The notes under the pieces are model-generated. The model saw nothing but the letters and a program-made list of their open reading frames with translations. It was not told the origin of the DNA and searched no databases. The position numbers and the translations under genes were made by a program. A stretch of DNA of 64,000 bases. It comes from Acinetobacter sp. WCHA45 (lineage in GTDB: Bacteria; Pseudomonadota; Gammaproteobacteria; Pseudomonadales; Moraxellaceae). Positions 35,232 through 64,000 of the stretch are shown here, piece after piece (within the stretch, counting starts at the first letter, position 1; every line of letters begins with the position of its first letter). The stretch is taken from NCBI RefSeq assembly GCF_002165255.2, contig NZ_CP028561.1, positions 682,001 through 746,000 of the forward strand, in the 5' to 3' direction.

Positions 35232-35306
35232 TGGCAGGGGCGGCTGGATTCGAACCAACGGATGGCGAGATCAAAACCCGCTGCCTTACCACTTGGCGAC
35301 GCCCCT
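35232..35306 (-). tRNA. tRNA-Gln (TTG), copy 4 in transcription order
   Basis: 75 bases, encoded CCA. Acceptor stem AGGGGCG/CGCCCCT, discriminator G, anticodon loop TTTTGAT reading TTG, T loop TTCGAAT. Identical in sequence to the three other copies. It is the copy nearest prs, 37 bases from its start. Confidence 0.97.
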
Positions 35307-35391
35307 AATGCGGCAGAACTTTAATCGTTTTGCATGATAATGTCAATATGATTGAACAGGTATCAATATAAAACAAGTCTGTCTAAAGATA

Positions 35392-35466
35392 TGGCAGGGG
35401 CGGCTGGATTCGAACCAACGGATGGCGAGATCAAAACCCGCTGCCTTACCACTTGGCGACGCCCCT
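35392..35466 (-). tRNA. tRNA-Gln (TTG), copy 3 in transcription order
   Basis: Same 75-base sequence as the other copies, with CCA encoded. It is separated from the next downstream copy by 85 bases, the longest spacer in the cluster. Confidence 0.97.
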
Positions 35467-35484
35467 AAATTTGATGATATGTAA

Positions 35485-35559
35485 TGGCAGGGGCGGCTGG
35501 ATTCGAACCAACGGATGGCGAGATCAAAACCCGCTGCCTTACCACTTGGCGACGCCCCT
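35485..35559 (-). tRNA. tRNA-Gln (TTG), copy 2 in transcription order
   Basis: Same 75-base sequence, separated from its neighbours by spacers of 18 and 25 bases, too short for own promoters, so a joint precursor is likely. Confidence 0.97.
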
Positions 35560-35584
35560 ATTACATACATCTACAGGTGAAAAT

Positions 35585-35659
35585 TGGCAGGGGCGGCTGG
35601 ATTCGAACCAACGGATGGCGAGATCAAAACCCGCTGCCTTACCACTTGGCGACGCCCCT
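35585..35659 (-). tRNA. tRNA-Gln (TTG), copy 1 in transcription order, overlapping the ispE stop
   Basis: Same 75-base sequence. Its first two bases (A1, G2) are the last two of the TAG stop codon of ispE at 35658-35660. The coding message and this tRNA can therefore not both be complete after one cleavage at the tRNA 5' end. Confidence 0.95.
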
Positions 35660-45923: not shown

Positions 45924-46397
45924 TTATTTATGCAACATACGTGCTTTATCACGCTGCCAATCACGGTCTTTTTCCGTAGCACGTTTGTCATGTAATTGCT
46001 TACCTTTGACCAACGCAATTTCGAGCTTAACCAAGTGACCTTTCCAATAGCAGGCTAAAGGAACACATGAATAACCTTTTTGGTTCACTGCGCCTAGTAA
46101 CTTTTCTAGTTCACGACGAGATAATAATAACTTTCGTGTACGTGTCGATTCAGGTACGACATGGGTTGATGCAGACAATAAAGGCTGAATCTGTGAACCA
46201 AATAAAAAGGCTTCACCATTTTTAAAAATGACATAACTTTCAGACAATGTCATACGTCCAGCACGTAAGGATTTTACTTCCCAACCCTGAAGTGACATGC
46301 CTGCTTCAAATTTTTCTTCGATAAAGTAATCGTGACGCGCTCTTTTATTCTGAGCAATCGTGCCACCATTATGTTTTTTTACAACAATCTTGTTCAT
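45924..46397 (-). CDS. smpB: SsrA-binding protein SmpB
   Basis: Binds tmRNA for ribosome rescue. The 157 residues include [18 protein letters not shown] at the start, [12 protein letters not shown] at about 37-48 and a basic tail ending [12 protein letters not shown]. No ssrA gene is found next to it. The gene marks the left boundary of the accessory island; the coding sequence looks intact. Confidence 0.96.
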
Positions 46398-52820: not shown

Positions 52821-53348
52821 TTAATTGGAATTTCTAACAGCACGAACATTAAATTTTTTGGCAGTCTTGTAGTAAATGGAATCACTATTGACTGTACCTT
52901 CCTCAAAATTGACTGACCACGCATAACGGTTATCACTGGCCTTTGGAGATGATGACCAATAGTCATTGATGGCAGTTGTCGGAAAAATTGTTTCATTGAT
53001 GGCAGGGCTTACACAGGCTTCTTCAACCAAAGTTTGTAATTCCTTTACATTGGGCAAGCGATAACCGTTACCCAAAGCTTTGGTTTTTTGTAATGCTTCT
53101 GACCATGTATAGCTCTGTGGTGTACCGTAACATTGATTATTTGCCCACATTTGCCCTACGCTACAACGTTGCCAGATCAGACCTGTTTTAATGTCTTTCA
53201 CTTCGCTGCCATTGCTACCTTCAACAATTTGGTAACGTGTGTCAGGTACAACTTTTTTGATTTGGCTGTTACAGGTTTGTGCATAAGTAGTGTGAGCCAA
53301 TAAGGTACTCATAACAGTAATCAACAAAGCGTTATAAGATGCTTTCAT
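52821..53348 (-). CDS. Exported DUF1566 (Lcl C-terminal domain) protein
   Basis: A 175-residue protein with a signal peptide (to about residue 23) and one DUF1566 domain. The family hallmarks are visible: VKDIKTGLIWQRCSVG, YRLPNVKELQTLVE and INDYWSSSP followed by AWSVNFEEG and FNVRAVRN. The same fold ends the Legionella collagen-like adhesin Lcl, where it binds ligands on host and bacterial surfaces. It starts 33 bases after the larger DUF1566 gene, in the same operon. Confidence 0.88.
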   Translation of the reverse strand: MKASYNALLITVMSTLLAHTTYAQTCNSQIKKVVPDTRYQIVEGSNGSEVKDIKTGLIWQRCSVGQMWANNQCYGTPQSYTWSEALQKTKALGNGYRLPNVKELQTLVEEACVSPAINETIFPTTAINDYWSSSPKASDNRYAWSVNFEEGTVNSDSIYYKTAKKFNVRAVRNSN

Positions 53349-53381
53349 TTTAGAATCCTTTTTTATCTTTAAGTGGTGTTG

Positions 53382-54428
53382 TTATTGGCTGGCACGTACC
53401 GCACGGATATGTCCCATATAGTCCTTGAAAGCAGGACTGGCTGCACCATCCTTAAAGTCAGACATCCATGCCTGAGTACTTTGTTTCGCACTCGTGGTTG
53501 ATGACCAATAACGATCTACAACAGTCGTATTGGTAAAGATAGGATTTAAAGAGGGTTGATTTGATGAGTAATCTGTCAGATTGATCAATTCACTACGGGT
53601 TGGTAATCGCCAGTCACTATAACCACAATAGTTAGCTTTATTCAGGGCTTCGATATAAGCAGTTGTATTACAACTTGTTAGCGTAGAACCACACGTAGTC
53701 GAGCTAGCCTGCGAACCTGCATTGCCACCATTGGTTTGAGTATTCGCATTGAACCAAGAGTAACGCCAGTTGCTGTCACGTAATTTTGCATCTGCGGTTT
53801 TTTGTTCCCAGACTAAACCAGTGATCTGATCCTTGATACACTCATCATTGTTATGTTTTATCAGGCTATAGGTCATTTTTTTCCCAGCCTCAACTTCACC
53901 ATCCTGTCCTAAGCCGAGCAGTTCACCCAGATTAGATGCGTTACAAACAAGGTTATTTTTATCATTTGTACCACACAAGGTAATACCTGTTGTCGTCAGC
54001 ACTGGCAAGATGGTAGATGAAGCGGAAACAGGGAGTGCTGCAAGTGTTTTACCATTACCAGCCTGATTGGCTTCAATCGTACATACACCAACACCAAGCA
54101 TTTCAACCTTTTGCTGACCAAGATCACCAGTAATACGGCAATGATCAACCGTTTTACTGGTATATGTAAGTGCTAAGCCTGCACTGGATTGAGCAGATAA
54201 AGACACTGTTTGGTCTACATTGATTGAGTTGGGTAAGGTTAGACCTGTGATGGTTTGAGAGACTTTGTCCTTACAAATATTTCCCTCAAGATACTGGGTA
54301 CTTGTACAGGTTGGAGTAGGGATTGGTTCAGGTTTTACTTCTGTAGAGTTGTTATTGCCGCCATTACCACCGCCACAAGCAGTTAATACCATAGCCCCGC
54401 AAAGGATTGATAACTTATATTTTTCCAT
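53382..54428 (-). CDS. DUF1566 (Lcl-domain) lipoprotein, 348 residues
   Basis: A lipobox VLTAC gives Cys18, followed by a Gly/Asn-rich linker. A middle region of about 50-140 has Ig-like strands. The C-terminal DUF1566 domain carries ITGLVWEQKTADA, YSDWRLPTRSELINLTDY, VDRYWSSTTS and GHIRAVRAS. It is the first of four minus-strand genes for exported proteins that look like cargo of the island. An adhesive or ligand-binding role is inferred from the domain only. Confidence 0.87.
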   Translation of the reverse strand: MEKYKLSILCGAMVLTACGGGNGGNNNSTEVKPEPIPTPTCTSTQYLEGNICKDKVSQTITGLTLPNSINVDQTVSLSAQSSAGLALTYTSKTVDHCRITGDLGQQKVEMLGVGVCTIEANQAGNGKTLAALPVSASSTILPVLTTTGITLCGTNDKNNLVCNASNLGELLGLGQDGEVEAGKKMTYSLIKHNNDECIKDQITGLVWEQKTADAKLRDSNWRYSWFNANTQTNGGNAGSQASSTTCGSTLTSCNTTAYIEALNKANYCGYSDWRLPTRSELINLTDYSSNQPSLNPIFTNTTVVDRYWSSTTSAKQSTQAWMSDFKDGAASPAFKDYMGHIRAVRASQ

Positions 54429-54896: not shown

Positions 54897-55967
54897 ATGG
54901 CACATTTAGTTGAAACTATGGCATTTGTAGGACAAACCCCTTGGCATGGCCTAGGCAATGAACTCACACCAAACCAACCCATTGAGGTCTGGGCACAACA
55001 GGCAGGCATGGACTGGCGCATTGAGTCTTCGGATGTTAGCTACATGGCACAAAATGAAAAAGGGCAGAGCATCATCATGCCGTTTGAGGAACAACGGGTG
55101 CTGTACCGCTCTGATACCCATGCACCTTTATCCGTCGTTAGCCAACGCTTTCAGGAAGTACAGCCCATGGAAATCCTGCATTTCTACAAAGACCTGACTG
55201 AACAATCAGGTTTTGAACTGGAAACCGCAGGGGTACTGAAAGGTGGCAAGAAATTCTGGGCACTAGCTAAAACAGGACAAAGCTCAGCTTTAAAAGGCAA
55301 GGATATCAGTAATGGCTACATTTTATTGGCAACTGCCTGTGATGGAACCCTTGCCACCACAGCACAATTTACTTCGATTCGTGTGGTGTGTAACAACACT
55401 TTAGCGATTGCACTCAAAGCACACAACAGCACAGCGAACAATGCTGGTGTGGTCAAGGTTCCCCACAGTACCCGATTTGATGCAGAGAAAGTGAAACAGC
55501 AACTCGGCATCTCGGTTCGTGCATGGGATGAGCACATGTATGAAATGAAACAACTCAGCCAGCGTAAAGTGACACAGCAGGAAGCCGCAGCCTATTTTGA
55601 TGCAGTGTTTAACAATACCAGCCTGAGTATTGCCGAGCAGGATGAAAGTATTGTCCAGTTCTACCGTAATGCAGCAATGCCAAATCAAGTACCAGTAATA
55701 TCCACAACGAACAAAGCTGACAATAAAACTGAACCCAATGGGCGTGCCATGTCCAAGGTGATGACCATGTTTAATGGACATGGGCGAGGGGCTGAACTTA
55801 GCTCAGCCAAGGATACCGCCTACGGTTTGTTGTGCAGTATCACGGAATTCGTTGACCACGAGCGTCGTGCCATGAGTCAGGACTACCGTCTTGATTCGGC
55901 TTGGTTTGGAGCAGGAGCAGCTATCAAACAGCGTGGACTGGAACAGGTCTTAAGAATGATTGCCTAA
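54897..55967 (+). CDS. DUF932 domain protein
   Basis: A 356-residue protein of the DUF932 family, found on plasmids, phages and islands, function unproven. The start MAHLVETMAFVGQTPWHGLG is diagnostic, as are FTSIRVVCNNTLAIAL and the GRGAELSSAKDTAYGLLCSITE region near the end. It is followed by its own terminator and then a YqaJ exonuclease gene, a set seen together in mobile elements. Confidence 0.9.
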   Translation: MAHLVETMAFVGQTPWHGLGNELTPNQPIEVWAQQAGMDWRIESSDVSYMAQNEKGQSIIMPFEEQRVLYRSDTHAPLSVVSQRFQEVQPMEILHFYKDLTEQSGFELETAGVLKGGKKFWALAKTGQSSALKGKDISNGYILLATACDGTLATTAQFTSIRVVCNNTLAIALKAHNSTANNAGVVKVPHSTRFDAEKVKQQLGISVRAWDEHMYEMKQLSQRKVTQQEAAAYFDAVFNNTSLSIAEQDESIVQFYRNAAMPNQVPVISTTNKADNKTEPNGRAMSKVMTMFNGHGRGAELSSAKDTAYGLLCSITEFVDHERRAMSQDYRLDSAWFGAGAAIKQRGLEQVLRMIA

Positions 55968-56003
55968 ATTAGCCTAAGCAAACTTAACTCAAATTTATTT
56001 TCT

Positions 56004-56032
56004 AAAGCTGCATCTTCGGATGCAGCTTTTTT
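56004..56032 (+). terminator. Intrinsic terminator after DUF932 gene
   Basis: Stem GCTGCATC/GATGCAGC with a TTCG tetraloop and six T. Confidence 0.92.
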
Positions 56033-56070
56033 ATGCCGCAAATTTCCATTTTACCCACTAGGACAGTCCA

Positions 56071-57183
56071 ATGAATATCAATACCCAGATTCAAAACACC
56101 CTAAACCATCCACCACTACAACCGTATTTACCGAACCTAAACCAACAGAGTCAGCAGATTGAAGTTGGGACACGAAGCAAACGTCTACCTCGAAAAGCAA
56201 AAACACCCGTAGCCAAACGTCTTGCCAATACCAAACAGATGAATTACCAACAGTGGCTGGAAGTTAGAAAACAGGGCATCGGTAGTAGTGATGCAGCCAC
56301 CGCCTGTGGACTGAATCCGTATATGTCAATGCTGGAACTATGGATGATCAAGACAGGCCGAATGCAACAAAATATCGAAGATGAAAGTGCAGGCTATGCA
56401 CCCTTGTACTGGGGTAAACAACTTGAACCCTTGGTGGCGGAATACTACAGCATGCACACTAACAATAAAGTCCGTCGAGTTAATGCAGTGCTGCAACATC
56501 CTGATGAAGATAAACACTTTATGCTTGCCAATTTGGACTATGCCGTGGTGGGCAATGATGAAGTTCAAATCTTAGAATGTAAAACCGTAGGAGAATATGG
56601 CTCAAAACTGTGGCGAGATGGCGTACCACTGTATGTGCTGTGCCAAGTGCAACACCAGTTAGCCGTGACAGGCAAACAGGCAGCACATATCTGTGCCTTG
56701 ATCTGTGGGCATGAAACTAAAATCTTTAAAGTGACGCGTAATGAAACGGTGATTCAACACCTTATTAATGCCGAACGTCACTTCTGGCAATGTGTCGAAA
56801 CAGGGATTCCACCGAGCGTAGATGCATCTGATTCAGCAGCCAAAGCCCTGCAACAACTTTATCCAGAACAAATTCCATTAATGGTGGAAGACCTGACCCA
56901 AAATGAACAAGCTAACTATCTATTTAATCAATTGCTAGAGGAGAAGCACAAGGTTGAACAACACCAACAGTATTTCGATGAACTGAAACATCAACTACAA
57001 ATGATGATGAAAGATGCGGAGCGAGCGGTGTTTACAGGAGGATCAGTGACGTGGAAGAAATCACAGGACTCCATCAGCCTAGACAGCAAATCTCTGCTTA
57101 AACAACACCCTGAATACCTACAGCAGTTTCCTCAGACCAAAGCAGGAACAAGACGCTTTCAGATTTATCCCAATGGTGGATAA
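56071..57183 (+). CDS. YqaJ-family (lambda-exonuclease-like) recombination nuclease
   Basis: A 370-residue phage-type nuclease that would resect DNA ends for single-strand annealing. The family start RKQGIGSSDAATACGLNPY is at about 66-84. The nuclease residues are Glu119, Asp156 (NLDYAV), Glu169 and Lys171 (LECK). The first 55 residues are Gln/Lys-rich and not part of the domain. No annealing protein of the RecT or Bet type is recognised beside it; the DUF932 or the RDF-like protein may fill such a role, which is speculation. Confidence 0.9.
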   Translation: MNINTQIQNTLNHPPLQPYLPNLNQQSQQIEVGTRSKRLPRKAKTPVAKRLANTKQMNYQQWLEVRKQGIGSSDAATACGLNPYMSMLELWMIKTGRMQQNIEDESAGYAPLYWGKQLEPLVAEYYSMHTNNKVRRVNAVLQHPDEDKHFMLANLDYAVVGNDEVQILECKTVGEYGSKLWRDGVPLYVLCQVQHQLAVTGKQAAHICALICGHETKIFKVTRNETVIQHLINAERHFWQCVETGIPPSVDASDSAAKALQQLYPEQIPLMVEDLTQNEQANYLFNQLLEEKHKVEQHQQYFDELKHQLQMMMKDAERAVFTGGSVTWKKSQDSISLDSKSLLKQHPEYLQQFPQTKAGTRRFQIYPNGG

Positions 57184-57218
57184 AGTGACCTAAAAATTCC
57201 TCCAAATTCAAAAACGAC

Positions 57219-57268
57219 AAAAGCCGCCCCTGTTCTTCCCGAGGGAAGAACAATATGGACGGGCTTTT
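57219..57268 (+). terminator. Hairpin, probable terminator or leader, between nuclease and RDF-like genes
   Basis: Inner stem GTTCTTCC/GGAAGAAC (57232-57251) closed by an outer AAAGCC..GGGCTTT pairing, followed by a short T run. It lies 36 bases after the nuclease stop. Confidence 0.6.
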
Positions 57269-57354
57269 GCTGATCGATCACATCTATTTATTCAATATTT
57301 CCAACGTTTCACATAAAGCAGTGAATCAGTAAGAAAATACCAGAGGACATACCT

Positions 57355-58257
57355 ATGATTAAAGGTTTAGCCATTACCCCACCTGTTTTAGGTCGTATTA
57401 GCATCGGCAAGATTGTCGAAAGGAACGGCAAACGTATCCCTGAAAAGGATGACCAATTTACCATTACCAGCCAAATCCAGAATAAGGATGGCTGGGTCAA
57501 ACATCCACTAGATGAACAACTTAGAGCTAAAGCACCGAACCAACACCAAAAGTTAAGAAGCATTCCTGTGCGTATGATCTTTAATGATCCTGAACTAAAC
57601 TTGCGGGCAGAGTACAGCCTATTTGACCGCCAGACTGGACGCTTGATCTGTTCAGGCAATGGGGAAACCTGTCAGCGACTTGGGCAAAATGGCATTGAAC
57701 AGCATCTATGCCCATCCCCTGATTTATGTCCATTGGCACAGGGCGGGCTGTGTAAGCCTTATGGCAGACTCTACGTCAATTTAGATGAATCAGATGAATT
57801 TGGCACATTCATCTTTAGAACCACAGGTTTTAACAGCATACGGACTTTGGCGGCACGGCTTCGTTACTATCATGCAGCATCGGGTGACTTGCTTTCGTGT
57901 TTGCCATTACAACTGACTTTAAGAGGTAAAAGCACCACACAAAGTTACCGTACCCCGATCTATTACGTGGATTTAACTTTAAGGGATGGTGTGAATTTGC
58001 AGGAGGCAATTAGCTCGGCCAAGCAAATTGATGGACAGAGCAAGGCAGCAGGCTTTTATCAGGAGGCGTTGGATCATGTGGCACGGCAGGGTTACGGCAA
58101 TGCCAGTTTTGAGGTGGGCGGTGACGAGGGTCTAGATATTGTTGAGGAGTTTTATACGGATGAATCAAGACCAGAACAGCATCAGCAAGCCTATGATTTG
58201 ACTCATGTACAGGATATTCAGAAAGGTTTACAGCAGTCGGTGCAGGCTTTGAATTGA
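57355..58257 (+). CDS. Recombination-directionality-factor-like / metal-binding island protein
   Basis: A 300-residue protein annotated in similar islands as hydrolase or metal-binding protein and related to the gp3-like recombination directionality factor family. The start MIKGLAITPPVLGRISIGK is typical. Five cysteines at about 99, 106, 119, 125 and 133 can form a zinc site, preceding GRLYVNLDESDEFGTFIFRTTGF. Such factors steer serine integrases in some phages, yet no serine integrase is present in the window. Confidence 0.75.
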   Translation: MIKGLAITPPVLGRISIGKIVERNGKRIPEKDDQFTITSQIQNKDGWVKHPLDEQLRAKAPNQHQKLRSIPVRMIFNDPELNLRAEYSLFDRQTGRLICSGNGETCQRLGQNGIEQHLCPSPDLCPLAQGGLCKPYGRLYVNLDESDEFGTFIFRTTGFNSIRTLAARLRYYHAASGDLLSCLPLQLTLRGKSTTQSYRTPIYYVDLTLRDGVNLQEAISSAKQIDGQSKAAGFYQEALDHVARQGYGNASFEVGGDEGLDIVEEFYTDESRPEQHQQAYDLTHVQDIQKGLQQSVQALN

Positions 58258-58332: not shown

Positions 58333-58360
58333 AGGAGGCTTATGCCTCCTTATTTTTTTT
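58333..58360 (+). terminator. Intrinsic terminator after RDF-like gene
   Basis: Stem AGGAGGC/GCCTCCT with a TTAT loop, followed by TA and eight T. Confidence 0.9.
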
Positions 58361-58424
58361 AGAAAAATACATATTTTACTCTTATATGTCAGTTTTAACT
58401 TAGAAGCTACAATATATTTAAAAT

Positions 58425-58491
58425 GGCTTTGTTGCATAAATATCGGGAAGATAGACTGACTCATCTTTATTTTTATTTATGCAACAAAGCC
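58425..58491. mobile_element. 67-bp palindromic element with perfect 18-bp IS-like ends
   Basis: GGCTTTGTTGCATAAATA (58425-58442) and its exact complement (58474-58491) enclose 31 bases. The ends resemble, from memory, the terminal repeats of IS903/IS17-type IS5-family elements. No transposase fits between them, so this is a MITE or an internal-deletion remnant. The nine-base flanks are not clear target duplications. Confidence 0.6.
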
Positions 58492-58540
58492 AATTTTTAT
58501 TCTAAGTAATAGAAATGATTTTAATTATTTTATTGACTTT

Positions 58541-58598: not shown

Positions 58599-58652
58599 AA
58601 TGTGTTTTTATTTTTAAATTTTAGTTTACTTGGGTATTTAGGGGTGGTTTCA

Positions 58653-61600
58653 ATGCGATCTAAAAGTGTATTGCAGTTTTGTGTTGCCTTTTTTTTATTG
58701 GTTATTAGCTTAACGTTACAATCACTCGCAAATGCCAGCTTATTTTTAACTCCTAAACATGATCACCATCATAATCATCATTCATGTCACGTAAATCAAC
58801 ATAAAAAAGAGTGCATATTTAAATCAATTGCACTGCCAATTGATCAATTTAATGATGCTTCAATTAATCAAGTATTTACCTTAACACAGCATGTTCCAAG
58901 TATTAACCAGACAGGTTTTTCATGGATCAACTGGCAAGGTGAAAAAGGTCTATTACCTGTATTAAGCGAGTTAGCGCAAAATAATCCATCTCAAAGTTAC
59001 CATAATCCCTTTGACCAAAAAGATAAAACACCGAATGTAAATGATTGGATGTATTCAGCATCATTAAGTGATATTGAAAATATTGACGTTGCACTAAAAT
59101 TTAAACTCTTCCATCAAAAGAAAGAAGTTTGGGTTCCACTATGGAAAGCTCAATCTACTTTGCAGGAACAAGAAGAATGGGGGTGGAATAAAATTGTAGG
59201 ATGGGTAAGTAATGTAACTTGCAAAATTGGTTTAGGACATTGTGAAGACCGATTAGTCTATCAAATCGGTGGTTATGCCGTTATTGATATAATAGATGTT
59301 GGATTTACTTATCAAAATAATAAAAAAATACCTTGGATTAAAGTCGTCTTTAAAGGTTTTAAACACTGTTTTAATACCCCACCAGATGCAACAGATATTG
59401 ATGTTGTAACGAATGAAGATCAAGCTGTCGCAGTTCAGCTTAAAGGAAGTGATGCTGACAATAATCCATTGTCCTATACCGTGAGTACACCACCAAAACA
59501 TGGAAAATTAGAAGGCAGTGTGCCAAACCTAAGCTATATTCCTGACCCAAATTTTGTAGGTCAGGATGAATTTTTTTATACGGTAAATGATGGTTCTGAA
59601 AGTACGACAGCAAAAGTAACCATTACAGTCAAACCAGTGAACGATGCGCCTATTGCCCAAAATCAACAATTAACAGTGGCAGAAGATCATCCACTTAATC
59701 TGGTTTTAACAGGTACAGATATTGATAGCCCTAATTTGAGTTATGCCATTGAGAGTCAGCCTTTACATGGAAAGGTGGTTCAAGTAGGTGGTCAATATCA
59801 ATATATTCCCGACCCTGATTATGTTGGAGAGGATAGTTTTAGATTTTCAGTGTCTGATGGTGAATTATCAGCGAGTGGTTTGATTCAGATCACGGTGACA
59901 CCTGTCAATGATGCGCCTGTAGCACAGGCATTTGATATTGAGACAGCAGAAGATACAACAGTTGAAATTCAGCTTAAAGGCACCGATCCTGACAATGATA
60001 TTTTGACTTATACAATAACAAATAGACCACAACACGGTATTTTGGTGGGTTTTGGACAAAATCTTCAATATATTCCACACCCAAACTATTTTGGTAAAGA
60101 TGAATTTACCTATACAGTCAATGATGGGCAGCTCACTAGTACGGCGATTGTCAAAATCAATGTATTACCAGTCAATGATATGCCTGTTGCACCAGATATC
60201 GAATTGACCGTCAATGAAGATGGAGAAGTGAAACTCCCATTGCCTGAGCTTGATGTTGATGGAGAGCCTGTTAAATATGAATTTGACGATCCACGTAATC
60301 AAATTGATGATTTTATTTGGATTTCAAATTCAGGTGAAGGAACAATATCAAAAATCAATGTAGATAGTGGTGTAGAGCTTGCCCGTTACCGTACTGGTCC
60401 AACAACTGCTGGAAATCCATCTAGAATTGCAGTTGACTTAGATGGTCATGCTTGGGTAGGTAATCGTGCCAATAATACCATTACTAAAATTGGTTTAAAG
60501 GAAAAGGGACAGTGTATTGATCGCAATCATAATGGTGTGATTGATACATCTACTGGATCTCAAGATATTAAGGCATGGGGCGGCTATTTTGGTGATGGTC
60601 AAGGTGTGAACAATGCCTCAGATGAATGTATTTTATTGCATGTGCAGGTACAAAAACAAAATATTGCAACCCCAACAGATATCCGTATGGTTGCAGTTGA
60701 CAAAGACAATAATGTCATTGTGGGTGGTACAAATATTCGGTCTGTATTTAAGATCAATGGTCAGACAGGCGAAGTCATTAAAGGGTTGAATACGGCTGGT
60801 TCTTTTTATGGTGGGTTTGTTGATCAGTATGGTCGTACATGGGCAATTTCACGTTACTCAGGTCGTGGTGTCATTATTCGAGTGGATGCTGCTTTTGAAC
60901 AATCAGAACTGGTTGACTTAGGGCAAGATCTTTATGGGATTGCACTGGATAAAGAAGGAATTGTTTGGGCGGATTCTTTAAGTTCACCTGCAATTGTTGC
61001 GTATGATCCTAAAAATCCATCACAAACCAAGATTTTTTATCAGCAAAATCGATCTGGTTCATGTTATGCACAGGGCATGGTATTGAATACCAGTGGAGAT
61101 ATTTATATTGCAGGTTGTTTGAATTCAAATGTTGTTGGGCATTATAAAAAACAAATCAAAGCGGATGGCAGCTTTGACCTTAAATTTATTGCAAATTATG
61201 TTGTTGGAGCGGGTCCGACAGGTGTGGCTATTGATAAAAATGGTGCAGTTTGGGCGTCTAATTATTATGGCAATAGTGTGTCACGTATTCAGTTTAATGC
61301 AGCAGGCTCAACTCAAATTCAAAGTTTCCCTGTAGGTGTAAATCCCTATAACTATAGTGATATGACAGGTTATTTCCTAAAAAGCTATACCTCTAAGTTG
61401 ATTGGTGGTATCGAAGGGACTTTGCCGAATTTTGTCTATAAACCTGCTTTAGATTTCAATGGTACAGAAACGATTTACTATAAAGCTTATGACCATGCAA
61501 CAGGTCAATATGTTTCGGGCAAAATCATTATTCGTGTAACACCTGTAAATGATGCTCCAATCGTAGAGGACAGCAGCTATAGTTTAAATGAAGATGCGAG

Positions 61601-64000
61601 TGTAGGTTTCGATTTGCTTGGAACGGATAAGGAAACAAGTACTGACCAACTTGTATTTAAGATCACGCAACAACCAACATCTGGTACGTTAGAGGGATCG
61701 GGCAGACGTTGGACATATAAACCAAATCCAGATTTTAATGGCACAGACTCCATTCAATATACAGTCAGTGATGGTCAGGAAACCAGTGTTGGAACCATTA
61801 GCTTTAATGTTGCGGCAGTGAATGATAGCCCAGTTGCTCAGGCTTTGAATATATCTGTAGATGAAGATCAATTCGTTGCAATAAAACTGCAAGGCACAGA
61901 TGTGGATGGTGATACGCTCAGTTACAGTATTATCAGACCTCCTGCTTCTGGTGTTGTGACAGGTCAGGGACAGGATTATGTTTACACACCGAATGCCAAT
62001 TTTAGTGGTACAGACACTTTTGAGTATGCGGTCAGTGATGGCAAATTAGTACATAAAGCCATCGTGACAATTGTTGTTCGTCCAGTGAATGATGCACCTG
62101 TAGCCAATAATCAAGAGATTGAAGTTCGTAAAAATAAAACGGGTTCAATTGTACTGACTGCTACAGATGTTGATAGTGCCAACCTAACTTATCAGCTAAG
62201 TTCAGCACCAAGTCATGGTACGATTACAGGAACAGCGCCGAATTTCGTTTATACCCCAGCGACTGGTTATGTGGGAGCAGATGAGTTCCAGTTTACAGTG
62301 AGTGATGGAACCTCAGTGGGTACTGGACGAGTTCAGATTCAGGTGGTGGATACACCAAACCGCTTGCCTGAATGGCAATCTGTACCGCCTACGCAGGCAG
62401 AAGTGGGGACATTGTATCAATATAGCTTACAGGCGACAGACCCAGATCAAGACCCAATTGCCTATCATTTAGCAGCGAATGCCCCTCAAGGAATGAGCCT
62501 TAATGGCAATGTAGTGTCATGGACACCACAGGAAGGGCAAGAGGGCAATGTTGAGTTCCAAGTTGTTGCAACAGATACTGAAAATGGTTCAACAGTTCAA
62601 ACTGTGAAATTAACAGTACAAGCACGAAATGTTGCACCTGTGATTCATTCAAAACCGAGCTATAGCACTACTGCCGCTAAGCCGTACAAATACCAGTTGG
62701 TGGCTGATGACGCGAATCAGGATAAATTAACTTATAGCCTTGACCACGCACCTGTAGGAATGAAGATCAATGCTGAAACAGGATTGTTGACATGGGAACA
62801 GGCGGTTGAGGGGCAATACAATATTGTGGTCAAAGTCAGTGATGGTCGCTGGATTGTATCTCAGAGCTATACATTGACTGTAACGCCACCACAACCACTT
62901 TCAGTTGAAATCGTTGTACCTGATCAAATCAAGCTCAATGAAGCCTTTAGTATCAAGGCACAAGTCGGTGGTTCGAGTAGTAATACCACAGTTCAACTCT
63001 GGGTTGATGGCGTGGAGGTTGCCTTAGATAATAATTATCAAACGACATTAACCCTGTCTCAATCGGGACAGCATACTGTTACCGTGATTGCTAAAGATGG
63101 AACTGAAACTCAAACCAAAACCATCAATATTTGGGTGACGGATACCTCTGATACAACAGCACCACAAGTCACATTAAATGGTTTGGATAATCTAGCTACG
63201 ATTACGAAACCAACCTCAATTATGGGACAGATTTCTGACCAGAACCTAAGCCATTGGACAGTGAGCTTATATGATGTTGATGGTGAGGGGCGAAGCGTTT
63301 GGACCAAAGAGGGACAGGGGAATATCAATGGCGAACTTGCTGTAATTGATCCAACCTTATTGGTCAATGGGGTATACACAGTTGTGGTTCGTGTGGTTGA
63401 TATTGGGGGTAATGTCACAGAAGTAGTTCGTGACATTATTATCGATGGCAAGATGAAAGTAGGTGAACTGGCATTTACCTTGGAAGATGCTGTGATCCCG
63501 ATGCCAGGTCTAGATATTAGTTTACAACGAAGTTATGACAGCCGTTTAGGACATCGAGTGGGTGATTTTGGTCACGCATGGAGTTTGGGCATCCAGCAAA
63601 TGCAGATGCGCCAAAGCCGTCCGATTCATACAGGTTGGGAAACCTATATGAAAAGTATATTGCTACAAACTTCGGGTACACAGTTGGGTACGATTTGCTT
63701 ACGTCAACGTAATAGCAAACCATTGCCAACAGTCACTGTGACTTTACCTAACGGTGATGTTGAAACATTCCAAGTCGAATTGGGTTGTGCATCAGGACTT
63801 CGAGACCGCAACACAGGCGAGATCATTCAGGGCAATTCATTCCCTGTGACATTTAAGCCAGTGGGTGATACCCAAAGTCGTTTTAACATCACAGGAGAAA
63901 CCACAGTTTCAGTGATTAATGGACGTTGGTCATCATCATCAGTCCAAGAAATTGATGACAATGGCAATGTTGACTACCTCTGGTATATCCCGAGTGAATT
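58653..64000 (+). CDS. Giant exported cadherin-like/Ig repeat protein with inserted beta-propeller and RHS start (3' end outside window)
   Basis: An open frame of 1,782 visible codons from ATG 58653 (after AGGGGTGG) to the window edge, no stop. A signal peptide ends near residue 28 and is followed by a His-rich stretch, HDHHHNHHSCHVNQH (36-50). Cadherin-like repeats of about 89 residues run from about 246; their ends are marked by VNDAPVA-type motifs near 329, 418, 507, 964, 1055 and 1144. Residues of about 550-910 form a Vgb/NHL-like beta-propeller inside the fourth repeat. Further Ig-like domains run to about 1600. The end begins an RHS-type region (MPGLDISLQRSYDSRLG). An adhesin or RHS toxin carrier is inferred. 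Confidence 0.85.
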   Translation, partial: MRSKSVLQFCVAFFLLVISLTLQSLANASLFLTPKHDHHHNHHSCHVNQHKKECIFKSIALPIDQFNDASINQVFTLTQHVPSINQTGFSWINWQGEKGLLPVLSELAQNNPSQSYHNPFDQKDKTPNVNDWMYSASLSDIENIDVALKFKLFHQKKEVWVPLWKAQSTLQEQEEWGWNKIVGWVSNVTCKIGLGHCEDRLVYQIGGYAVIDIIDVGFTYQNNKKIPWIKVVFKGFKHCFNTPPDATDIDVVTNEDQAVAVQLKGSDADNNPLSYTVSTPPKHGKLEGSVPNLSYIPDPNFVGQDEFFYTVNDGSESTTAKVTITVKPVNDAPIAQNQQLTVAEDHPLNLVLTGTDIDSPNLSYAIESQPLHGKVVQVGGQYQYIPDPDYVGEDSFRFSVSDGELSASGLIQITVTPVNDAPVAQAFDIETAEDTTVEIQLKGTDPDNDILTYTITNRPQHGILVGFGQNLQYIPHPNYFGKDEFTYTVNDGQLTSTAIVKINVLPVNDMPVAPDIELTVNEDGEVKLPLPELDVDGEPVKYEFDDPRNQIDDFIWISNSGEGTISKINVDSGVELARYRTGPTTAGNPSRIAVDLDGHAWVGNRANNTITKIGLKEKGQCIDRNHNGVIDTSTGSQDIKAWGGYFGDGQGVNNASDECILLHVQVQKQNIATPTDIRMVAVDKDNNVIVGGTNIRSVFKINGQTGEVIKGLNTAGSFYGGFVDQYGRTWAISRYSGRGVIIRVDAAFEQSELVDLGQDLYGIALDKEGIVWADSLSSPAIVAYDPKNPSQTKIFYQQNRSGSCYAQGMVLNTSGDIYIAGCLNSNVVGHYKKQIKADGSFDLKFIANYVVGAGPTGVAIDKNGAVWASNYYGNSVSRIQFNAAGSTQIQSFPVGVNPYNYSDMTGYFLKSYTSKLIGGIEGTLPNFVYKPALDFNGTETIYYKAYDHATGQYVSGKIIIRVTPVNDAPIVEDSSYSLNEDASVGFDLLGTDKETSTDQLVFKITQQPTSGTLEGSGRRWTYKPNPDFNGTDSIQYTVSDGQETSVGTISFNVAAVNDSPVAQALNISVDEDQFVAIKLQGTDVDGDTLSYSIIRPPASGVVTGQGQDYVYTPNANFSGTDTFEYAVSDGKLVHKAIVTIVVRPVNDAPVANNQEIEVRKNKTGSIVLTATDVDSANLTYQLSSAPSHGTITGTAPNFVYTPATGYVGADEFQFTVSDGTSVGTGRVQIQVVDTPNRLPEWQSVPPTQAEVGTLYQYSLQATDPDQDPIAYHLAANAPQGMSLNGNVVSWTPQEGQEGNVEFQVVATDTENGSTVQTVKLTVQARNVAPVIHSKPSYSTTAAKPYKYQLVADDANQDKLTYSLDHAPVGMKINAETGLLTWEQAVEGQYNIVVKVSDGRWIVSQSYTLTVTPPQPLSVEIVVPDQIKLNEAFSIKAQVGGSSSNTTVQLWVDGVEVALDNNYQTTLTLSQSGQHTVTVIAKDGTETQTKTINIWVTDTSDTTAPQVTLNGLDNLATITKPTSIMGQISDQNLSHWTVSLYDVDGEGRSVWTKEGQGNINGELAVIDPTLLVNGVYTVVVRVVDIGGNVTEVVRDIIIDGKMKVGELAFTLEDAVIPMPGLDISLQRSYDSRLGHRVGDFGHAWSLGIQQMQMRQSRPIHTGWETYMKSILLQTSGTQLGTICLRQRNSKPLPTVTVTLPNGDVETFQVELGCASGLRDRNTGEIIQGNSFPVTFKPVGDTQSRFNITGETTVSVINGRWSSSSVQEIDDNGNVDYLWYIPSE

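Follow-up and report, generated by a model that had tools for sequence, protein, structure and literature searches.

We propose that a gene at the end of a 64,000 nt stretch of DNA from Acinetobacter sp. WCHA45 (the window; NZ_CP028561.1, positions 682,001 to 746,000) encodes a polymorphic Rhs toxin that is exported via Sec, independently of a type VI secretion system (T6SS), and that is carried as cargo of an integrative island; we put the probability of this reading at roughly three in four. The protein is probably a weapon against other bacteria. From N- to C-terminus it consists of a signal-peptide-like start, a His-rich stretch, a domain of ~210 aa, seven cadherin-like repeats, Ig-like domains, an RHS/YD shell, an Rhs core (TIGR03696) and a tip of 195 aa. 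An earlier reading of the sequence alone had described a single stop-free frame reaching the end of the window, and the frame indeed continues for 3.8 kb beyond that edge: the rhs gene, on the + strand, runs from an ATG at 58653 to a stop at window-equivalent position 67787 (window-equivalent positions are coordinates in L009, the rhs locus DNA, plus 56000), and encodes 3044 aa with no internal stop. We looked for a stop or frameshift just past the window and found none. A GTG at 58602 is an alternative upstream start of the same frame, which is open to the window end, and by inspection an AGGGG-like sequence precedes the ATG. The other five frames over this DNA contain 134 to 324 stops each. 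Between the gene and its counterpart in A. kookii, codon positions 1, 2 and 3 differ at 210, 151 and 871 of 2848 compared codons, a pattern that argues for purifying selection rather than a chance frame. The parts of the gene are as follows.

58653..64000, + strand: in-window part of the rhs gene, which ends at window-equivalent 67787 (= L009:11787; stop codon L009:11785-11787)
58653..58736, + strand: signal-peptide-like start, aa 1-28 (by inspection: R2/K4, hydrophobic core, ANA before S29, no lipobox cysteine)
58737..59375, + strand: His-rich stretch and N-terminal domain, aa 29-241 (Pfam/PDB comparison, A. kookii alignment)
59376..60173, + strand: cadherin-like repeats R1-R3, aa 242-507 (Pfam and a profile of the protein's own repeats)
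60174..60287, + strand: repeat R4, part before the propeller, aa 508-545 (covers positions 1-38 of the 89 in the model)
60288..61400, + strand: Vgb/NHL-type beta-propeller insert, aa 546-916 (Pfam, PDB sequence matches, AF2 model)
61401..61547, + strand: repeat R4, part after the propeller, aa 917-965 (covers positions 43-89 of the 89 in the model)
61548..62351, + strand: cadherin-like repeats R5-R7, aa 966-1233 (Pfam and own-repeat profile)
62352..63449, + strand: two He_PIG and further Ig-like domains, aa 1234-1599 (Pfam)
63450..64000, + strand: first part of the RHS/YD shell, with a DUF6531-like segment at aa 1601-1648; the shell continues, with Rhs_assc_core, to window-equivalent 67199
window-equivalent 67200-67787, + strand: main tip, aa 2850-3044 (195 aa), the sequence after the core

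Both N-terminal features named in the sequence-only reading, a signal peptide and a His-rich segment, were recovered, the former as a signal-peptide-like start judged by inspection and the latter as 8 His within aa 35-62. A signal-peptide-like N-terminus is present in the rhs proteins of both the window strain and A. kookii, and the N-terminal domains of the two proteins have five cysteines in common. Neither Pfam nor the PDB yielded a relative of this domain at a meaningful E-value. Two of the 149 genus genomes carry it, as does one of the 369 class genomes, its own genome being included in both counts; outside that genome and A. kookii, no copy was found in the 149 genus and 369 class genomes, genome_contigs, plasmids, phages or viral contigs.

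Domain scans recovered all three types of module that had been claimed for the central region. Big_9/cadherin (tandem-95) repeats and He_PIG exceed their cut-offs (Pfam/NCBIfam); the Ig-like families just before the shell fall below theirs even when that region is scanned alone. The NHL family scores 31.7 in the propeller when this piece is scanned alone (cut-off 20), and 16.2, below the cut-off, in the whole protein, while a Vgb_lyase match in the propeller is below its cut-off in both scans. When the propeller is compared with PDB sequences, the best matches are to designed Pizza propellers (E 4.1e-11), followed by PknD (1.2e-4) and virginiamycin B lyase (0.0064). Virginiamycin B lyase also ranks first for the AF2 model of the propeller (E 2.4e-9, TM 0.66 by target length), a match that we count as supporting only, since the model has low confidence (mean 45.8; 67 of 458 residues at 70-90). 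The order of the modules needs correction: the propeller sits inside a cadherin-like repeat, and three more such repeats follow. We searched three sequences with a profile built from six repeats of the protein itself and located the two halves of repeat R4, at aa 508-545 (E 1.2e-7) and aa 917-965 (E 1.5e-9); because these flank 371 propeller-like residues, we conclude that the propeller is inserted in this one repeat. The A. kookii protein is collinear over the propeller-in-repeat region and 91% identical. In the sequences searched, neither the split-repeat propeller nor the N-terminal domain had a counterpart other than that in A. kookii.

The RHS shell had been described as only beginning before the window edge. 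The shell is there, but it is more than a start: a complete RHS part, with its core, extends beyond the window, and the repeats run on for ~1250 aa. RHS_repeat matches 23 stretches of the protein (E 2.6e-133), and all 26 genome-wide matches to this family (E up to 0.001) lie within the rhs gene and an orphan frame behind it. DUF6531 reaches 29.7 (cut-off 24.1) when aa 1400-1700 are scanned alone and is missing from the whole-protein list. The predicted core motif was found as Rhs_assc_core at aa 2771-2849, with 61 bits against a curated cut-off of 32.5. Rhs and teneurin-like shells of solved structure can be aligned within aa 2034-2854, and the core aspartates, D2819 and D2846, align with those of known Rhs shells. 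At the PxxxxDPxGL boundary, the main gene reads PVMYTDSSGY, whereas the orphan and A. kookii read PVMYTDPSGY; the first Pro, the Asp and the Gly are kept, the Leu is replaced, and the second Pro is lost in the main gene. The second core aspartate of Photorhabdus Rhs1 acts catalytically in tip release (PMC8636562, in part). According to the same source, the Rhs1 motifs are 17 apart, whereas in the main gene here the two aspartates are 26 residues apart and the sequence is DSSGY rather than DPxGL.

A variable C-terminal tip had been predicted to lie beyond the window, and it does. The main tip, aa 2850-3044, matches no Pfam family over cut-off; its sole Pfam match is RolB_RolC, at E 0.065, below cut-off. 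No relative was found beyond its own gene in 175 genus genomes, plasmids, viral contigs and PDB sequences, save a PDB match at E 1.5, and its AF2 model has a pLDDT of 34.1. A stretch of 42 aa in the main tip weakly matches the beginning of the orphan tip (36%, E 0.045). By eye, the main tip could be taken for a HYD1-like ADP-ribosyltransferase. We do not claim this, as PF15633 gave no match and comparison with a home-made profile of three Acinetobacter HYD1 domains was not significant (E 0.094, hhalign probability 0.6%). PF15633 occurs in 3 of 175 genus genomes, the genome studied here not being among them, and in 0 of 229 class genomes, in a search in which no positive control matched either. 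In those three genus genomes the translations place the HYD1-type matches (L017-L020) after Rhs cores, and the same loci contain additional core copies close by.

Behind the rhs stop codon lies a series of small genes and partial copies of the gene's end, listed here in window-equivalent positions.

67788-68159: 123 aa gene, candidate immunity gene, directly behind the rhs stop
68187-69978: orphan Rhs cassette, with its core copy at 68187-69333
69981-70727: 248 aa gene
within 70728-70947: tip remnant, a decayed second NucA/NucB-type tip
70948-71823: 291 aa gene, SUKH-like
71863-72567: 234 aa gene
72591-72664: core relic of 74 bp

The immunity-type gene expected downstream does adjoin the tip. 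We regard the 123 aa gene, which is present in 1 of 175 genus genomes (its own), as a candidate for this role by virtue of its position. The orphan cassette has a TTG start and is without a signal peptide; its core copy is 94% identical to the main core over 1147 bp, and its tip is a NucA/NucB DNase (PF14040, 44.3 bits, E 2.6e-11; cut-off 23.8 bits). The 291 aa gene scores 22.5 bits against SMI1_KNR4 and its A. kookii counterpart 19.1 bits, both below the cut-off of 25.4 bits; Imm-SUKH is described as a partner of Tox-NucA (PMC3482391, in part). The three immunity-type genes have a GC content of 26.9 to 28.3%, as compared with 44.6% for the shell, a difference that would fit cassette import. 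Given that a spare DNase tip and immunity-type genes lie downstream together with 1.1 kb of matching core, tip swapping by recombination is possible. The series reads as a stepwise displacement of old tips downstream, with the direction of events being one that we infer. Orphan tips and their recombination have been described for Salmonella rhs (PMC3967940, in part), and effectors of Vibrio cholerae are reported to undergo sequential displacement (PMC5361080).

Comparison with A. kookii ANC 4667 (L015) shows, for this one relative, that the tip varies at the core motif while the rest is conserved. The same rhs protein is present there, with about 88% identity as far as the core motif, and DNA similarity stops at aa 2850. 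The A. kookii main tip is a NucA/NucB domain (PF14040, 45.6 bits; cut-off 23.8) that is 42% identical to the orphan tip and has no match at E up to 1 to the main tip of the window gene. Behind it stand a SUKH-like gene (50%) and then a counterpart of the 234 aa gene (87%); the tip remnant in the window genome is, by eye, of the A. kookii kind. These observations bear on the idea that the protein is mainly an adhesin or a biofilm matrix protein, with a structural RHS shell and tip cassettes that are relics. Cadherin/Ig-like repeats and propellers are typical of surface adhesins, and here they account for nearly half of the protein (aa 242-1599). Teneurins, moreover, are cell adhesion receptors in animals (PMC13018210, in part). 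However, a tip exchanged at the core motif between two species, NucA/NucB DNase tips in both the orphan and A. kookii, and small low-GC genes behind the tips all argue against a primarily adhesive role, which we consider unlikely.

The gene is part of a 27.9 kb island inserted in smpB, between smpB and coaD, with the following landmarks.

46375..46385, no strand: left island end, an 11 bp repeat in the 5' end of smpB, repeated at window-equivalent 74283-74293
54897..58257, + strand: DUF932, YqaJ and Gp3-like recombination directionality factor genes (Pfam)
window-equivalent 72907-74121, - strand: integrase (Pfam)
from about window-equivalent 74385: coaD

Since the 11 bp repeat is T-rich and weak by itself, the boundary rests mainly on empty sites: smpB and coaD adjoin in all five of the other Acinetobacter genomes that we chose for comparison. 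The island also carries a YagK/YfjJ-type gene, in which a match to a replication protein falls below the cut-off, and two minus-strand Lcl_C-domain proteins (52821-54428) whose starts look, by eye, like those of signal peptides or lipoproteins. Between the rhs gene and the gene preceding it there is a terminator-like site at 58333-58350 (1 found, 0.2 expected), and an Rfam scan of L009 gave no match. Just upstream of rhs, positions 58420-58496 contain a 23 nt inverted repeat (96% complementary, 31 nt between the arms), which we take to resemble the ends of IS6-family elements, as a MITE-like relic. Elsewhere in the window, at 35232-35659, four tRNA-Gln(TTG) genes stand in a row. In A. kookii, the DUF932, YqaJ and Gp3-like directionality factor families precede rhs in the same order as in the window island, with DUF932 alone of the three matching at the DNA level (79.8%). 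The A. kookii block lies near a tRNA-Arg gene and has a different integrase, so the rhs block occupies two different places with two integrases. Directly upstream of that block, L015:175-3478 contains three VENN-type pretoxin-start frames that look like orphan CdiA-type toxin cassettes; the one that was scanned has PT-VENN and Ntox50 over cut-offs.

Delivery by a T6SS, as for other Acinetobacter Rhs proteins, has to be weighed against export via Sec. Rhs proteins encoded in vgrG islands have been described in Acinetobacter (PMC6838775, in part), and A. kookii, which has the same protein, has the sheath gene VipB, as do two other genus genomes (3 of 3 searched). VipB, the one T6SS gene that we examined, is nevertheless absent from the window genome, an assembly of 3.09 Mb with 99.99% completeness, in a search whose positive control matched in E. 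coli. In addition, neither PAAR nor VgrG matches the rhs protein at E up to 0.05, and the N-terminus of the protein is signal-peptide-like in both species. If the protein works in this strain, the absence of VipB implies that a T6SS is not its sole route; T6SS delivery is, in our view, very unlikely, and membership in the T6SS-delivered Rhs group was rejected for want of VipB in the genome and of a PAAR match, with the presence of VipB in A. kookii noted. A further alternative is that the targets are eukaryotic cells (protists or animals), as for TcC-type shells; alignments of the core region extend beyond bacterial Rhs to TccC3, YenC2 and mosquito SGS proteins. We consider this quite unlikely: no SpvB or TcdB match was found at E up to 0.05, on which ground we also reject membership among Tc toxins (TcB/TcC), and immunity-type genes beside the tips point to bacterial targets, following a general pattern (PMC3482391, in part). 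Membership among CdiA two-partner toxins was rejected as well, since Pfam shows no N-terminal TPS domain in the protein at E up to 0.05.

The class to which Sec-dependent export would assign the protein is an established one. Signal peptide plus RHS is a listed export class ('T2SS/Sec-dependent'), whose members likewise combine a signal peptide and an RHS shell with a variable C-terminal toxin and have an immunity gene next to them, and in one group, that with an inactive transglutaminase, Ig-type domains occasionally adjoin (PMC3482391, in part). Unlike that class, the window protein has an N-terminal domain found in two Acinetobacter species and seven cadherin-like repeats, one of them containing a propeller. 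WapA-like proteins belong with the Sec-exported RHS polymorphic toxins. Bacterial teneurin-like proteins are likewise surface-directed, combining a propeller and a YD shell in one chain with a polymorphic C-terminus and an immunity gene, and in teneurin-like toxins a single superfold, invariant in its organisation, comprises FN-plug, NHL and YD shell (PMC13018210, in part). In the window protein, by contrast, about 680 aa separate the propeller from the shell, and by eye there is no lipobox. We therefore reject teneurin-like membership, given the propeller at aa 546-916 and a shell from about aa 1600, with the contiguity of the superfold being our reading of PMC13018210. The locus shares the core motif, a displaced tip, a downstream core copy and immunity genes with the orphan-tip Rhs loci of Salmonella (PMC3967940, in part) and of Acinetobacter T6SS Rhs proteins (PMC6838775, in part). 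The near-identical core copy is 95% identical over 522 bp in Salmonella (PMC3967940, in part), as against 94% over 1147 bp here. Unlike those loci, the window protein begins with a signal-peptide-like start and a stalk, in a genome without VipB.

More distant relatives were sought with the RHS entry region, which two of the 175 genus genomes and eight of the 369 class genomes contain, the window genome being counted in both. The seven non-own class matches comprise L030, L031, L033 and L034, which were scanned with Pfam, L032 and L035, which were inspected as translations, and L029, which was left out. All four of the gammaproteobacterial proteins scanned have Ig-like or PKD domains before RHS and are 34 to 36% identical to the window protein in the RHS entry region. 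L031 has FG-GAP repeats, and L030 has IgGFc_binding and HINT domains; the N-termini of L030 and L034 differ from that of the window protein, and the L031 and L033 frames run off the fetched DNA. L030:3635-14068 encodes an RHS protein of 3478 aa with a signal-peptide-like start, the IgGFc_binding domain, and PT-HINT before the tip. As far as listings show, we found no description in the literature of the module order of the window protein, and no paper on an RHS repeat with a tandem-95 repeat or on an Acinetobacter cadherin-like and Rhs protein. The sequence-only reading had not recognised the visible order as a described one. That holds for the split-repeat propeller and the N-terminal domain, but not for a signal peptide and RHS with Ig-type domains (PMC3482391, in part) or for Ig/PKD domains before RHS, as in the four relatives. 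With the export class described and this module order not found in the literature, we regard the protein as a known general type in a new arrangement.

We propose that the signal peptide would take the protein to the periplasm via Sec, and that the N-terminal domain may help it to reach or stay on the outer surface, where the cadherin/Ig-like stalk would keep it at a distance from the cell. The propeller in repeat R4 may bind a ligand on the target or in the matrix. The RHS/YD shell would enclose the C-terminal tip, which the aspartate pair D2819/D2846 may release by cleavage; the tip would then poison a neighbouring bacterium, and the adjacent small gene may protect siblings. A bolder version is speculative, and as a whole we hold it to be doubtful: this Sec-exported Rhs fibre would serve Gram-negative bacteria as a contact weapon that needs no T6SS and that an integrative island spreads, the N-terminal domain would be a new outer-membrane export or anchoring module, the propeller a receptor-binder within the cadherin-like stalk and the main tip a new toxin fold. 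The locus offers a genome without VipB and a species pair with different tips on one protein, and the N-terminal domain would be the prime suspect for export.
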